In this document: positions 56,895 to 63,627 of the stretch, one piece after another
Layout of the letters: every line of letters begins with the position of its first letter
How positions within the stretch are numbered: position 1 is the first letter of the stretch
Source: Nitrospirota bacterium
Lineage (GTDB): Bacteria > Nitrospirota > Leptospirillia > Leptospirillales > Leptospirillaceae
Assembly (NCBI GenBank): GCA_023481175.1
Contig: JAMCWM010000008.1
Location: 62,001-126,000, forward strand
Length of the DNA: 64,000 nt
Reading direction: 5' to 3'
Translations under genes and position numbers: made by a program
The notes under the pieces: model-generated
What the model was told of the DNA's origin: nothing
The model's database searches: none
What the model saw: the letters and a program-made list of their open reading frames with translations, nothing else

Positions 56895-57659
56895 GTTTCG
56901 GGTATTCACGCTTTTTCATTGTTCCCCAGACAATGCCCGGAGGCATCACGCTCATGGTCGTCGTTTTTGGGATCTTCTGCGGTATGAGACGGCAACATCC
57001 AATTTAAGCTTTTTCCCTCCCCCCATTGCCCGAAGGACTTTCTCCAGGGAGAAAAAGATCGGATCGGTTCCGGATCTTTCCCGTCTTTGGATCTTCTGAT
57101 CAGTGGTTCCTGCCCTTCTCGACAACGCCTTCCGGGGCATTCCGGCCGCCAAGGGCCTCTTTCTCGCGAGGATCGGAATGGCAATCCCGGGATCCGGCGC
57201 GATCTGGTATCTCTCTTTCTCTTCTCCTTTCCGCTCCGCCGGATCCGGAATATCCTCTCGTGGCCGATCATCGACCCAAGAATTCCGGTGAACGAAGGGG
57301 ATTCCTTCCTGCCCGCTCCCCGGCTCTTCACGGAGATCGATTCGCGTCTGAACGGTCAGGCGACGCACACGCTGGATTGACCCGGGGTTTGGGACCCCGG
57401 ATCCTTCGGAACGGGGATCTCGGGGAGGTCCGGAAAAATGCCCACAGCGACCCGTCCCTTTCCCGTGAGACCGGATTTTGCGGCATTCCCCCAGCCGTCA
57501 GGCCGTCAGCGGGCGTTTTGCTTTTTCTTTTGATTTAAGTTATCATGAAAAGAAAGGGATTTTCCGATAATATCCGAGAAAGTCCTTGGGAAATGAGCTT
57601 CCGGTGACAGACCAGGCGTGTTCGCCCTACCGTTGGCCTCTCTGGCCCGAAGGAGGACC
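56895..57659. other. 765-base gene-free region before the sigma-54 activator
   Basis: No supported gene. Overlapping frames on both strands lack ribosome sites and family similarity. Features seen are a hairpin CCGGGGT-TTGGG-ACCCCGG (57382-57400), a tandem repeat GCCGTCAG x2 near 57493-57508, and an AT-rich segment (about 57520-57580) with GATAAT near 57567 that may hold the promoter of the downstream regulator. Confidence 0.45.
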
Positions 57660-59090
57660 ATGAAAACACCCGAGACGGAGTCACGAGAGTTCTTTCAGGT
57701 TCCCCTCCCCAAAAAATCCCTTGTCCTCCTCGAGTCGGGGGTCGTTCCCTCCCTCAGTGTCCTCGAAGCCCTGAAGGATGAATGGGCCATCGTTCCGGTC
57801 CGCTCTCTTGAGAGCCTGAAAAAGTACAGCAGGAAAGAAAAGGTCGACGTCGGTCTCGCCTATTTGCCGGCGGACATGACGGAGAAAAAATACCGGGACC
57901 TCCTCTCCCTGTCCGAGGTCACCTGCCGGTGGATCGCGCTCCTCGAGCCCCGGGGCCTGGGAAATTTCCATGTTCTCCGTCTGATCCAGAATGTCTGCCA
58001 CGACTTCCATCTCCTTCCGGTCGATCCCGATCGACTGAAAGTCGTGATGGGCCATGCCCTGGGCATGGCCCGGATCCCTCTCCTGTCCGATCAGGCCGTC
58101 CCGGAGGAGTCCGTTCCCTTGTCCGATCTCGTCGGAAGGAGTCCGGCCATGCAGGAGGTGGTCCGACGGATCCGGAAGGTCGCCTCCGTCGATGCCTCCG
58201 TCCTGATCACGGGAGAGAGCGGAACGGGAAAGGAGCTGGTGGCCCGGGCCATCCATGAGCAATCCGGCCGGAGACGGGGACCATTCATCGCCATAAATTG
58301 TGGCGCGATCCCCTACAACCTTATCCAGTCCGAACTCTTCGGTTACGAAAAGGGGGCCTTCACCGGGGCGGCGTCCCGCAAGATCGGCCATATCGAATCG
58401 GCCCACACCGGGACGATCATGCTCGACGAGATCGGGGATATGCCTCTCGAACTCCAGGTCAACCTCCTGCGGGTCCTGGAAACGGGAAAGATCCTGCGGG
58501 TGGGGAGCTCTCTCGAAATTCCCGTCGATGTCCGGATCATCGCCGCCACGCACAAAGACCTCGAAAAGGCCTGCCGGGAGGGACGTTTCCGTGAAGATCT
58601 CTTTTATCGGCTGAATGTCCTGAAGATCCCCCTCCCCCCCCTCCGGAGCCGCGAAGGGGACATCATCGCCCTGGCCCAGCATTTTTTCAGGAAATTCTCG
58701 ACGGAACGGGTGGGCAACCTGAAGGGATTCACCCCCGCCGCCCTGCGCGAAATGCTGCGGTATCCCTGGCCCGGAAACGTGCGGGAATTGATCAACAAGG
58801 TCCAGAGCGCCGTGCTCATGAGCGACGGTCCCTTTATCCGGCCGGAAGACCTGGGTCTTGACGCGGAGGAAGGGTCCTCCCGGAGTCATGGGGAAACCTT
58901 GCGGGAGATCAAGAACCGCGTGGAACGCGAAATCATCCTTGCCACGCTCCACAGGAACAACAACAACGTGAATCTTTCTTCCCGCCATCTCGGCGTCACG
59001 CGGACCACTCTGTACGCCCTTCTCAAAAAGTACGGCCTCGGCGCCGACGGCAGGGTCTCCGCGGAGGGTGAGGAGACGGACGTCCGATGA
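57660..59090 (+). CDS. Sigma-54-dependent activator, VpsR-like
   Basis: A 476-residue NtrC-class protein. The N-terminal 150 residues resemble the receiver-like domain of VpsR, but where a phospho-acceptor Asp would be expected the strand reads VGLAYLPAD, so phosphorylation seems unlikely. The AAA+ domain has Walker A GESGTGKE (about 184-191), the sigma-54 contact loop GAFTGA (about 230-235), and Walker [10 protein letters not shown] Fis-type helix-turn-helix ends the protein (about 430-465). AGGAGG precedes the ATG. With GAFTGA intact it should activate sigma-54 promoters such as the one at 51322. Confidence 0.9.
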
Positions 59091-59842
59091 GTCGGGCGGA
59101 CGCGAAAATGGATTGTTTTTTCTGACCCCCCCCCCGGGATCCCGAAAGCTTTACTCTGATGTTTTTCCTGAAATGATCCCCGATTCCGAGCCCGGATCTT
59201 TCCTGATCTTCCTTCCATCGGCCATTCGTCCGCCAGTCTGTGGCGCCTCCTCTGTCCAGTTTCCCTGAAGTCCCGCGATGGCGGGAAAATATCATCAAGA
59301 TGTGTTGTTGATTGAAAGATTTTAAACTCTTGTCCTGTCGATGTTCCGCCAGCGATTTCCGTCGGACTGTCCAAATTCCGAGACAATTAAATGGCGTCGA
59401 CGGGGAGAGAAGACGGCCCCCGGTGGACCTCTCCTCGGGAGTCCACGAAATTCCTTTGTCCGGAAATCGGGAAAGGGTCCTCGGACCCCCGCCTGGAGAA
59501 TTTTTAATTCTCGATGACTGGCAAGGACTTGTATGGCATGAGCGGATGCGGGATCTTCCTTCCCCCGGACCGGACTTGGGGCCTGGTTCGATTCTTGACT
59601 TTTATCTTGCTGTGATCAAATGATGTTTTTTTCTTAGAACAGATCTTGCATAAACATTATTGAATGTCTGGAGAGATCTTTCCCCAGAAGTGACAGGTGA
59701 GGGCATTCACTGTCGGATTGAGGCCTTGTCGGGCGAAAAGTCTTTGTTGGGTTTCAGGTTCCTTTTCCCCTTGTTGATCCTTGTCGGCCTTGTCGGCCTC
59801 ATCGAAAAGAGCGTCAGTTCCGATAACGATCGGAGGTCCGGA
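59091..59842. other. Gene-free region with a C10 tract
   Basis: 750 bases with no supported gene. Contains ten C at 59126-59135, an AT-rich segment near 59300-59340, TTGACT near 59595, and AG-N10-GC near 59638 (AGAACAGATCTTGC), which resembles a sigma-54 promoter but lacks the essential GG. Confidence 0.45.
59126..59135. repeat. C10 homopolymer after the sigma-54 activator gene
   Basis: Ten consecutive C, 35 bases after the stop of the activator gene; followed by GGG. Third ten-base G/C homopolymer in the window. Confidence 0.9.
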
Positions 59843-60028
59843 ATGGAAAAACAATCGAAAAATCGGGGCGTGGTCTTGCTTCGGAAAGACGGGGTCGTCC
59901 AGAACTTCCTTCCCCTGGACGGATCCCTTCTCAAGCTCCTCGAGAAGAGATCCGGATCCGGAAAATCCTCCTCGCGATCGGCGAAATTTGTGTCCGGTTT
60001 CCGGAGGCTCCTGGGTTTTGGGGGCTGA
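59843..60028 (+). CDS. Small basic hypothetical protein
   Basis: A possible 61-residue protein from the ATG at 59843 with GGAGG 6 bases upstream. It has a hydrophobic-basic pattern (RGVVLLRKDGVVQNFLPLDGSLLKLLEKR) and a Ser/Lys/Arg-rich tail. No family recognised. It precedes the paralogue/CBS cluster on the same strand. Coding status rests only on the ribosome site and frame. Confidence 0.35.
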   Translation: MEKQSKNRGVVLLRKDGVVQNFLPLDGSLLKLLEKRSGSGKSSSRSAKFVSGFRRLLGFGG

Positions 60029-60200
60029 GGGAACTCCGGAAAAGATTTCGCAGGAGCCCCGTCCCACAGGTCGGGGAGAGACCTTTGAAGAGGAGGCCCA
60101 TTTCGGGGGCCATGAATCCGGAGTGCGCCCGTTAAGAGAAGATTCCTTCGTCAATGGGCAAAAACAGCCCTGTTTCAGACCATTGCCAGGGAGGGTCGTG

Positions 60201-60944
60201 ATGAACAGTCAAGGAGCGCCGGAGACTCTATTTCAGGGACCTTGCCCCGAAACGTCGGGGGAGGGAGCTTTTTTCCCCCCCTTTCGGATTCCTGTGAAAG
60301 CTGGAAAAGAGGGAGGCGGAGATCCAAAAACGCGCCCCCGGGGAAGAGACGGCCGTGAGACTGGAATCTCCCGCGTTCCCTCGGTGTGGAACAGCCTTCT
60401 TCAGGCCGAAGCGGAGGGTTCCCTTGTCCTGCATCCCTCCCGCCATACCGTCCTGGTCTTCAACCGGCTCCATGGGCCGGAATTTTGGAAGGGGATCCGG
60501 GCCTTCGCCATCCATTCCGAGGTCTTCGAATATGCGGCCCTCTGGGCGATGCAGACGCCGGTGGCCGGAAAAGACTACGACATCGAAAAATTCCTCATCT
60601 CCCTGTCTCCTTCGATGCCACTTGTGGAGGGGAAATGGAAGGACGATCTGGAGCTTCTCCGGTATTCGATCGAGATATCCAACGAATTGATGACTCTTTT
60701 CGGAATCGATTCCAATAGTGTCTGGCGAAGGCTGACGGCCCGTCCCGCCTCCCGGATTTCCGGGGAGTGGGACATCTTGCACGGAGGAATGCTCCTCGAT
60801 CTCGTGCTGGAGCGTGTCCGTGAAAAATTGGAACAGGGATTCTCACCGGAAGGAGCCCCCCGCCAAATGAGGGAGGACTCCTGTCTCCCTCGCGGGATTG
60901 AAAGAGAGGAAAAGGATGGAAGTCCGGAATATCATGACGAGTGA
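60201..60944 (+). CDS. Unknown protein, paralogue A of the CBS-linked pair
   Basis: A 247-residue protein from the ATG at 60201 (GGAGG 7 bases upstream). The first 55 residues are low-complexity. From about 61 to 210 it matches paralogue B (61519-62268): SVW, a conserved HP...TVLV...R block, FA....VFE.AALWA, FL..LSP, EI...L...FGID, and LLD.VLERVR. Mostly helical, no membrane segment, no known family recognised. The 3' end overlaps the CBS gene by 29 bases, which suggests coupled expression. Confidence 0.75.
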   Translation: MNSQGAPETLFQGPCPETSGEGAFFPPFRIPVKAGKEGGGDPKTRPRGRDGRETGISRVPSVWNSLLQAEAEGSLVLHPSRHTVLVFNRLHGPEFWKGIRAFAIHSEVFEYAALWAMQTPVAGKDYDIEKFLISLSPSMPLVEGKWKDDLELLRYSIEISNELMTLFGIDSNSVWRRLTARPASRISGEWDILHGGMLLDLVLERVREKLEQGFSPEGAPRQMREDSCLPRGIEREEKDGSPEYHDE

Positions 60945-61386
60945 CGTCAAGACCTGTACGCCCGATTCAACCCTGGCCTCCGTGGCCAACGTGATGTGGT
61001 CGGAGAATGTCGGCAGCGTGCCTGTGGTGGATTCCGGGGGGAAACCCGTGGGGATCGTGACCGACCGTGACATCGCCATGTCCTCCTTCCTGAACCACAG
61101 ATCCCTCTGGGAGCTCCAGGTCCAGGAGGTCGTGCACGGCCAGACGCTTTGGACCTGCCGTCCGGAGGATCCGGTCGAGACGGCGATCGAAATCATGAAG
61201 GCACACGAAATCCGGCGGCTTCCCGTGGTCGACAAGGCGGGCCACCTGGTCGGGCTGCTTTCTCTGGGAGACCTGGCGTCGGCCGCCGAACCCGGGGCGG
61301 GACGCATGAAACCTCCGCTCCCCCTCAATTCTCTGGACCCGGTCTTCAAGGCCGTTTTTTCCCACCATGCGATGGCAACGGGCTGA
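60916..61386 (+). CDS. CBS-pair domain protein
   Basis: A 156-residue protein made of two CBS motifs: VRNIMTSDVKTCTPDSTLASVANVMW with VGIVTDRDIAM (about 3-55), and VQEVVHGQTLWTCRPEDPVETAIEIM with VGLLSLGDLA (about 68-125). CBS pairs bind adenine nucleotides or SAM and act as sensors. The ATG at 60916 has GAGG 6 bases upstream; a TTG at 60898 is less likely. Placed between two paralogous unknown genes, it may sense cell energy for them. Confidence 0.9.
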   Translation: MEVRNIMTSDVKTCTPDSTLASVANVMWSENVGSVPVVDSGGKPVGIVTDRDIAMSSFLNHRSLWELQVQEVVHGQTLWTCRPEDPVETAIEIMKAHEIRRLPVVDKAGHLVGLLSLGDLASAAEPGAGRMKPPLPLNSLDPVFKAVFSHHAMATG

Positions 61387-61409
61387 TCCTCTCCGCTCCA
61401 TAGACGACC

Positions 61410-61436
61410 AGCCCGGCCCCCTCTCTGGCCGGGGCT
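61410..61436 (+). terminator. GC-rich hairpin after the CBS gene
   Basis: AGCCCGGCC (61410-61418) pairs with GGCCGGGGCT (61427-61436) with one bulged base. A second C-rich/G-rich pair follows (about 61435-61460). No T run, so termination may be factor-dependent or the structure may process the mRNA. Confidence 0.4.
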
Positions 61437-61518
61437 CCTCCTCCTTGCAAAGGGGGAGGGGGGCCCCGAAAAGGAGAGGGTATTATGGAAAATCCAATCT
61501 CCACGGAAGGAGATCCCG

Positions 61519-62268
61519 ATGACGGTTCATCTGACTGGATATGACGCTCTCGCCCTGGCCTATTATGCGGACCACAACGTTGATGTTCTCGTCAACACGA
61601 AATTCTTTGTCGACAAGGACGGAAAGAGGATTCCTGTGGACCCCTTCCAGACCCTCGAAATGGTCGAGAAGTGGGGTCTGCCGATGGAAAATCTTGTCTG
61701 CGAAGCCATGTCCGTCTGGGACTACATGCAATGCGTCGGGACCGCGGACGGCCCTCTGGCCATCCACCCCTGCCAGAGGACGGTGCTCGTTCTGACGCGG
61801 GATTTCGGGGATTTCCTCTCGGGGGGGATCTGCGGCTTTGCGGTCGAGCGGTCCGTCTTCGAAAAAGCGGCTCTGTGGGCCAAGCATGCTCCCCTGACCG
61901 AGCCCGAGAACGACCTTTATGTCTTTTTGGGGAGGCTTTCGCCCCGTTTGTCCCTCGGGGTCGGGGCGTGGCAGAACGACGGGGACCTCCGAAGACATGC
62001 CCGGGAGATTGCGACCGCCCTGATCGCGATCTTCGGGGTCGATCCGGAGTCTGCGAGAGAGATTCTCCAGGCGAGGAATGTCGTGGGCTACGAGCGAGAG
62101 TTCACGTCGTACGGGGGGGATCTTCTGGATATCGTGCTGGAGCGGATCCGGAAGACCCCCTCCCGGTTCCTCAGGGGCGGGACCTTCCCGCATGAAGGAG
62201 CGGCGTCGCCTGCGGCATCCGCTCCGGGCGGATCCCCGCTGACCCATGCCGGCCGGGAGTCGGGGTAA
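61519..62268 (+). CDS. Unknown protein, paralogue B of the CBS-linked pair
   Basis: A 249-residue protein from the ATG at 61519 with AAGGAG 7 bases upstream. The N-terminal 60 residues (MTVHLTGYDALALAYYADHNVDVLV) are unlike paralogue A; residues about 65-220 align with it, sharing SVW, IHP..RTVLV, FE.AALWA, LSP, FGVD and LLDIVLER. The C-terminal tail is Ala/Gly/Pro-rich. No family known to me. Cytoplasmic by composition. Hsp20 follows 130 bases downstream. Confidence 0.8.
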   Translation: MTVHLTGYDALALAYYADHNVDVLVNTKFFVDKDGKRIPVDPFQTLEMVEKWGLPMENLVCEAMSVWDYMQCVGTADGPLAIHPCQRTVLVLTRDFGDFLSGGICGFAVERSVFEKAALWAKHAPLTEPENDLYVFLGRLSPRLSLGVGAWQNDGDLRRHAREIATALIAIFGVDPESAREILQARNVVGYEREFTSYGGDLLDIVLERIRKTPSRFLRGGTFPHEGAASPAASAPGGSPLTHAGRESG

Positions 62269-62399
62269 AGCTCTTTGGCAGGATTCGGGCACGGATCCCC
62301 TCCGGGGCGGGGCCGGAAGGAGAAAAAGAGGCGCGACAACCGACCGGAGATCCCGTCCGGAGCCGTTGTCGCAGGAAGAACTTTGTGAGGAGGTCGGTC

Positions 62400-62858
62400 A
62401 TGAGCAGTCTGTTGAGGTGGGATCCTGTCCGGGAGTTCGAGGAGTTCGGTCGCCGCATGGCGCCCTGGTTCGGACGTCGCGGAAAAGAGACGATGAGGGA
62501 AGGAGAGGGAGCGGTCACGATCTTCGACTGGTCTCCCTCGGTGGATGTGGCCGAGGAGGAAAAGGACTATCTCGTCACGGCGGAGCTTCCGGAGGTGAAA
62601 AAGGAGGACATGAAGGTGACGGTGGAGAACGGGGTTCTGACGATCTCCGGGGAGCGAAAGAAGGAGAGGGAGGAGAAGGAGGGAGTCCGATATCACCGGA
62701 TCGAACGGTGCTATGGATCCTTTCTCAGAAGTTTCACCCTGCCGGAGGATGCCGATCCCGCCAGTGTCAAGGCGACCATGAAGGAAGGGGTCCTGAAGGT
62801 CCGTATCGGCAAACGCCCCGGAACCCCTCCGAAGGCCGTCCCGATCGGGACGGAGTAG
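62400..62858 (+). CDS. Small heat-shock protein Hsp20
   Basis: A 152-residue alpha-crystallin-type holdase chaperone. The domain runs from VDVAEEEKDYLVTAELPEVKKEDMKV (about 45) through NGVLTISGER to MKEGVLKVRIGKR (about 140). GAGGAGG is 6 bases before the ATG at 62400. No HrcA or ROSE-type element was recognised; a poor sigma-54-like sequence is at 62276. Member of the stress-like cluster. Confidence 0.93.
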   Translation: MSSLLRWDPVREFEEFGRRMAPWFGRRGKETMREGEGAVTIFDWSPSVDVAEEEKDYLVTAELPEVKKEDMKVTVENGVLTISGERKKEREEKEGVRYHRIERCYGSFLRSFTLPEDADPASVKATMKEGVLKVRIGKRPGTPPKAVPIGTE

Positions 62859-62925: not shown

Positions 62926-63627
62926 ATGCTCGTAGAGGGATCGGAAAAAAAGGAGCAAGAGACGCTGAACGGCATGATCTTTTCTGACCGCATCGAGGCC
63001 GCCCACAGGCTTGTCCGGGTCCTTGCGAAATTCAGGGGACGCCGTCCCCTGATTGCGGCCATTCCCCGGGGGGCCGTTCCCATGGGGGAAATTCTGGCCC
63101 GCGAACTGGACGGGGATCTGGATGTGGTGCTGGTCCGGAAGCTCCGGGCTCCCTATAACCCCGAGTTCGCCATCGGGTCCGTGGCGGAGTCCGGATGGAC
63201 CTATGTGGCGCCCTATGCGGAGGAGGCCGGGGGGACCGCCGACTATATCGACCGGGAAAAGACCTTCCAGCTCGGTGTGATCCGGAAGCGGCGGGTCCGG
63301 TATACCCCCCTCCGGCCTCCCATCGACCCGGCGGGACGGATCGTGATCGTCGTGGACGACGGTCTGGCGACGGGGGCGACCATGATTTCCGCGCTTCATT
63401 CCCTGCGCTCGCAAAAGCCGGCACGGCTTGTCTGTGCGGTTCCGGTCGCTTCTTCGGAGACGGTGGAGAAGGTCCGGCCCTATGCCGACGAGGTGGTCTG
63501 TCTTGAAACTCCGGAGTTCTTTCATGCGGTGGGAGAGTTCTATTCGAACTTTCCCCAGGTGTCGGACGAGGAGGTCGAGGCCATTCTCACGCGTGCGGCG
63601 GGAGGTGCAGCAAAAACCAGTCCGTAG
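62926..63627 (+). CDS. Phosphoribosyltransferase family protein
   Basis: A 233-residue type I phosphoribosyltransferase-like protein. The PRPP-binding loop reads VVDDGLATGATMISA (about 144-158). PRGAVPMGEILARE and VLVRKLRAPYNPEFAIGSV are typical of the subgroup often fused to, or next to, an alpha/beta hydrolase. Here the hydrolase lies on the opposite strand and overlaps it by about 40 bases. The start could be the later ATG at 62974; neither has a strong ribosome site. Substrate unknown. Confidence 0.8.
   Translation: MLVEGSEKKEQETLNGMIFSDRIEAAHRLVRVLAKFRGRRPLIAAIPRGAVPMGEILARELDGDLDVVLVRKLRAPYNPEFAIGSVAESGWTYVAPYAEEAGGTADYIDREKTFQLGVIRKRRVRYTPLRPPIDPAGRIVIVVDDGLATGATMISALHSLRSQKPARLVCAVPVASSETVEKVRPYADEVVCLETPEFFHAVGEFYSNFPQVSDEEVEAILTRAAGGAAKTSP

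Follow-up and report, generated by a model that had tools for sequence, protein, structure and literature searches.

The closest described gene mixture is found in the DosR dormancy regulon of Mycobacterium tuberculosis, whose members include HspX, an Hsp20 protein, and Rv2626c, a CBS protein. A third member, Rv0571c, is a putative phosphoribosyltransferase (PMC5309233). The locus described here contains a similar mix of Hsp20, CBS and phosphoribosyltransferase genes, but the DosR regulon has no known homologue of the two paralogues (P1 and P2) found here, and control of the present cluster points to sigma-54 activators instead of DosR. By analogy, the likeness is one of gene content and not of operon homology. 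Among the CBS-domain proteins (PF00571), the middle gene of the locus is unremarkable: it encodes a CBS pair carrying both motifs of the nucleotide type. Neither sequence nor profile comparison identifies P1 and P2 themselves as CBS proteins. The upstream regulator exhibits PF20161, PF00158 and the GAFTGA motif like the VpsR/NtrC-type enhancer-binding proteins, but its putative targets differ and belong to a new orphan family. The CBS, Hsp20, phosphoribosyltransferase and activator proteins are ordinary members of known families; what is new is the orphan family, its coupling to the CBS/Hsp20 mix, and the presence of sigma-54-type activators upstream of family units. Bacteria of the Leptospirillum group rank among the main oxidisers of iron where ores are bioleached and mines drain acid. 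A lineage-restricted family with several paralogues to a genome, a confident structural model that finds no match, and repeated links to CBS, Hsp20 and activators of the sigma-54 type would be a concrete entry point to their stress management, supplying a defined set of genes with testable partners.

Organisation of the locus

The window, meaning the whole stretch of 64,000 nucleotides analysed, is part of contig 6 of assembly G000 (2.32 Mb, 89% complete, 6% contaminated). The genes of the cluster and their surroundings are listed in Table 1. An earlier note on this DNA had described two paralogous ORFs (60201–60944 and 61519–62268) bracketing a CBS-pair protein, with Hsp20 and a phosphoribosyltransferase downstream, and this arrangement holds: both ORFs are present, two PF00571 stretches identify the gene between them, and Pfam matches identify the two genes that follow. 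The 29-base overlap between P1 and the CBS gene is likewise correct, as the P1 stop codon ends at 60944 and the CBS gene begins with the ATG at 60916. The identity given for Hsp20 stood, though its proposed start at GTG 62385 did not; translation probably begins at ATG 62400, which is preceded by GAGGAGG. The left edge drawn at 59843 is the start of a conserved 61-aa ORF that had been left undescribed, and the upstream enhancer-binding activator and the promoter pattern were also absent from that description.

Table 1. Predicted features of the cluster and adjoining region (positions within the window)
Feature	Coordinates	Strand	Evidence or remark
Sigma-54 type enhancer-binding transcription activator	57618..59090	+	Pfam PF20161, PF00158, PF25601, PF02954
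Degraded -24/-12 (sigma-54-like) promoter position TAGAACAGATCTTGCA	59635..59650	+	matrix score 7.9
Conserved 61-aa basic protein, heads cluster	59843..60028	+	Shine-Dalgarno GGAGG
Paralogue 1 (P1), orphan-family core from ~residue 58	60201..60944	+	
CBS-pair protein	60916..61386	+	PF00571 x2, E 9.5e-30
Paralogue 2 (P2), orphan-family member at full length	61519..62268	+	
Hsp20 small heat-shock protein	62400..62858	+	PF00011 E 6.9e-25
Phosphoribosyltransferase-domain protein	62926..63627	+	PF00156 E 1.1e-20
Hydrolase-like gene	from 63587	opposing orientation	after phosphoribosyltransferase

The 61-aa protein did not provide a match in a Pfam search. It is the first gene of the cluster, in a conserved position, in G000, G003, G007, G009 and G013 (five genomes), and its identity to the window's copy is 59% in G013 and G007 and 39–41% in G009 and G003. 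The CBS-pair gene scores 103.1 bits against PF00571 (cut-off 24) and its product matches CBS structures in the PDB. The motifs GIVTDRD and GLLSLGD are intact and the TxxD/SxxD ligand motifs are conserved in the linked subfamily; judged from these motifs, nucleotide binding by the CBS protein is plausible. Between the CBS gene and P2, a GC-rich inverted repeat (61410–61436) was seen by eye that the terminator scan did not call. A third paralogue of G000 is encoded on a separate contig, downstream of a PAS-GGDEF-EAL protein.

An orphan protein family

BLASTP analysis of P1 against P2 showed 39% identity over 157 aa (101 bits, E 1e-30), including the motifs that the earlier note had quoted for the shared core. 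That note could not assign the core to a family, and neither could Pfam, NCBIfam, PHROGs, PADLOC or the PDB sequences, none of which gave a match. Curated HMMs searched against 24 members of the family provided only scattered single-member hits with E-values of 0.02 or worse, and a literature search returned nothing on the P1/P2 family or the operon. The HMM search and structure prediction that had been put forward as checks were both carried out, and the core matched no known domain or solved fold.

The AlphaFold2 model of P2 has a pLDDT of 84.8 and a pTM of 0.76, and in the AlphaFold model of P1 the core (approximately residues 62–211) is confident except for a loop near residues 181–190. 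Foldseek comparison of the two models with the PDB gave no match below E 0.001, and the P2 model gave none in BFVD. The predicted fold therefore appears to be without counterpart among solved structures at the sensitivity used. CorA soluble domains top both Foldseek PDB lists (probability ~0.1, E 0.04–0.1); an identity of P1/P2 as such a domain was rejected on this weak match and on an hhalign value of 0.2% against CorA sequences. Homology to the CBS protein was rejected as well (no Pfam match, hhalign 0.2% against the CBS subfamily), as was an internal duplication, the halves of the proteins not being repeats.

A profile built from 24 members gave 25 matches in 10 of the 21 genomes of the bacterial family (the Leptospirillum group) and no match among 275 other Nitrospirota genomes. 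About 24 members are distinct, with an identical member in G012 and G017 counted once. A pattern scan with a narrower alignment, covering 84,980 species at limited sensitivity, gave only Nitrospirae/Leptospirillum records and no homologue outside the phylum. The relatives in named records are Nitrospirae MAGs and a Leptospirillum sp., which places the lineage in the Leptospirillum group. As far as searched, the family is restricted to the Leptospirillum group. Viral contigs, phages and plasmids yielded no family homologues, and an origin from a mobile element, phage or plasmid was rejected for that reason. The member shared by G012 and G017 lies with a FAD/NAD oxidoreductase gene on a 2.7 kb stretch (L062 2570–5289 and L066 1–2720) that is 99.8% identical between these MAGs of two genera, a result of recent transfer or mis-binning.

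Against relatives at a dS of ~1, dN/dS is ~0.31 for P2 and ~0.36 for P1, so both paralogues evolve as proteins; across seven family gene pairs the ratio ranges from 0.12 to 0.36, indicating purifying selection. Seven residues are invariant in the family (W67, G97, L140, P142, L168, G200 and D204, P2 numbering). The conserved positions are mostly hydrophobic or structural, and the alignment contains no invariant catalytic-looking cluster among them, from which we infer that the family would fit a binding or scaffold protein better than an enzyme. A point against this non-enzymatic reading is the conservation of D204 and E163, which may reflect an enzymatic or ligand-binding role. Most relatives have ~60 N-terminal residues that P1 lacks. 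The first ~57 residues of P1 itself show no conservation and are predicted to be disordered, and residues 1–60 are disordered in its model. The N-terminal module of the family is absent from the CBS-adjacent member of G000, G013, G016 and G017 and present in that of G003 and G009. A frame-shifted relic of the module in P1 was considered and rejected, with no significant match in any frame.

Clades and gene neighbourhoods

In the tree of labelled rows, the CBS-adjacent (P1) and Hsp20-adjacent (P2) members are split by a branch with support of 100/99. A third clade is found in G014, G016 and G018, and lies near an Era-like GTPase gene in the first two. Judged from the tree, the clades are old and well supported. 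The order 61-aa gene, P1, CBS, P2, Hsp20 is exhibited by G000, G003, G009 and G013, and its second half by G002 on a short contig; linkage of the phosphoribosyltransferase to the cluster is limited to G000, G013 and G002. A neighbourhood survey, also proposed by the earlier note, found the family accompanied by CBS in seven of the ten genomes that encode it (one copy decayed) and by Hsp20 in seven (one a remnant). This recurrence with CBS and Hsp20 genes supports, by context, the idea of a stress-linked module.

The P1 and CBS genes overlap or stand at most 30 bases apart wherever an intact copy of each lies on a single contig, which is the case in five genomes (G000, G003, G009, G013 and G016). 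Of these, G016 is from another genus; beyond its P1-CBS pair and a remnant of Hsp20, it shares no gene with the neighbourhood in the window. In G017, the CBS gene next to a family member is interrupted by internal stops. Hsp20 adjoins a P2-type member without CBS at a second site in G009 (contig 65) and a P1-type member in G012 (contig 23), so that Hsp20 is repeatedly a neighbour, of different members and in either order, despite there being only one to four Hsp20 genes per genome; G000 holds three, of which one is in the cluster. Because the flanks are also syntenic within the window's genus, repeats of the linkage there are not independent, and the argument for linkage leans mainly on G016 and on the Hsp20 pairings at other sites. 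In about half of the family units, among them the entire third clade, no CBS or Hsp20 gene is adjacent. Across the species compared, the genes for P1 and CBS are coupled and the P2 gene is usually followed by Hsp20; by these gene positions P2 tracks Hsp20 better than CBS. The suggestion that the CBS protein controls both paralogues is weakened by the many members without CBS and by the P2-type member that stands beside Hsp20, without CBS, on G009 contig 65.

Regulation

The activator is composed of a VpsR-like N-terminal domain, an AAA+ domain with GAFTGA and a Fis-type HTH, and its start is probably the ATG at 57660. An orthologue with 78–79% identity immediately precedes the cluster in G013; in G007 it precedes the 61-aa gene, after which the contig ends. 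A relative with 56–57% identity precedes a family gene on G009 contig 45, and a more distant activator precedes a tandem family pair in G012, so that family units with an activator ahead of them occur in G000, G013, G009 and G012.

Scored with a sigma-54 matrix drawn up after the published consensus (threshold 12 bits), -24/-12 sites of at least 12 bits are present in 4 of 18 upstream regions (13.9, 15.1, 12.9 and 16.1 bits). The simulated mean is 0.11 such regions, none of 1000 simulations was as high, and the antisense strand gave 0. A further site, TGGCATGGTTCTTGTA, precedes the 61-aa gene of G007 (13.0 bits). The G013 site aligned to the window position, TGGCATTAATTTTGTA, scores 9.3, and the aligned position in the window itself is weak at 7.9 bits. 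RpoN is present in 17 of the 21 genomes of the bacterial family; it was not found in the 89% complete G000 assembly with the two domains searched. In G016 a 13-bit site comes after an activator and no family gene follows, which indicates that this activator has other targets. From these patterns, predicted sigma-54 control has good support in part of the family; for the window's copy it is only suggested, owing to the 7.9-bit site and to RpoN not being found in an incomplete assembly. The survey's best site (16.1 bits) stands in G012 (L064 4253–8628) between an activator and two tandem members that are without CBS or Hsp20.

Proposed function and alternatives

The reading that we tentatively favour, at somewhat less than an even chance, is that P1 and P2 are lineage-specific, non-enzymatic adaptor or binding proteins within a stress operon. 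A VpsR/NtrC-type activator would switch on family units through sigma-54 under stress, and the CBS protein would bind an adenine nucleotide and sense the nucleotide state. It would form a complex with the co-translated P1, for which the absent N-terminal module would be dispensable, and P2 would work on the Hsp20 side, for example as a client-binding or localising partner. We infer the steps from gene neighbourhood to binding, and P1 is the likely partner of CBS. This reading draws on the lineage restriction, the 100/99 clade split, the P1-CBS pair kept in G016 and its tight spacing, the recurrent Hsp20 adjacency, the upstream activators, the -24/-12 enrichment, and the lack of an invariant catalytic-looking cluster. 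Against it are the units without CBS or Hsp20, the within-genus synteny, the weak window site, RpoN not found in G000, the G016 activator that precedes no family gene, and the sigma-54 matrix resting on a consensus. The strongest rival, which we hold nearly as likely, is that the operon only co-regulates independent stress-induced proteins, grouped since they are called for under the same conditions, and that the CBS protein binds neither paralogue. Many members have neither CBS nor Hsp20 beside them, G012 encodes no CBS gene of the linked subfamily alongside its four or five members, and the promoter and activator link exists without CBS on G009 contig 45 and G012 contig 8. Co-regulation does not, however, readily account for a tight P1-CBS pair that persists in more than one genus, and in G016 where no other flank is shared, and the products of overlapping genes are often partners in a complex.

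A bolder form of the adaptor reading, in which a fold family born in the Leptospirillum lineage supplies P1 as an effector gated by a nucleotide-sensing CBS partner, making with Hsp20 and sigma-54 control an energy-stress switch private to these acidophiles, appears unlikely. Still less probable is a known fold diverged past recognition, such as a degenerate CBS-like or a roadblock/profilin-like ligand-binding domain. Residues 2–50 of P2 are modelled as beta-alpha-beta-beta-alpha, the secondary-structure order of a CBS domain, and the MglB roadblock, like the CorA soluble domains, is high in the sub-threshold fold list, but even the best fold matches have probabilities of at most 0.35, E-values of at least 0.04 and poor superposition, and neither the 0.2% profile comparisons nor the non-repeating halves point to such an origin. 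The least probable alternative, to which we give very little credence, is that these are tandem-multiplying, fast-evolving genes of genomic conflict (toxin-antitoxin or anti-phage). The several close copies in G003, G009 and G012, the patchy presence in 10 of 21 genomes and the fairly fast protein change (dN/dS 0.12–0.36) would be expected of such genes, but the clades are old and well supported, no phage or plasmid homologue was found, integrases and transposases are not regular neighbours, and the PADLOC match is limited to one member at E 0.026.

Other genes near family members

In G003 (L053 2142–2639) and G009 (L056 2174–2497), the 61-aa gene and an additional family member are separated by the gene for a heavy-metal-associated (HMA) domain protein. 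In the window's genus, a gene for a sigma-70-family factor (regions 1.2, 2, 3 and 4; L053 6763–7722) lies on the downstream side of the cluster; its window-side equivalent is at ~66946–67878, past the window end. In G012 (L063 2880–8599), an RtcB ligase, listed with the DosR-like gene mix, and a dienelactone-hydrolase-like gene are found near a family member and Hsp20.
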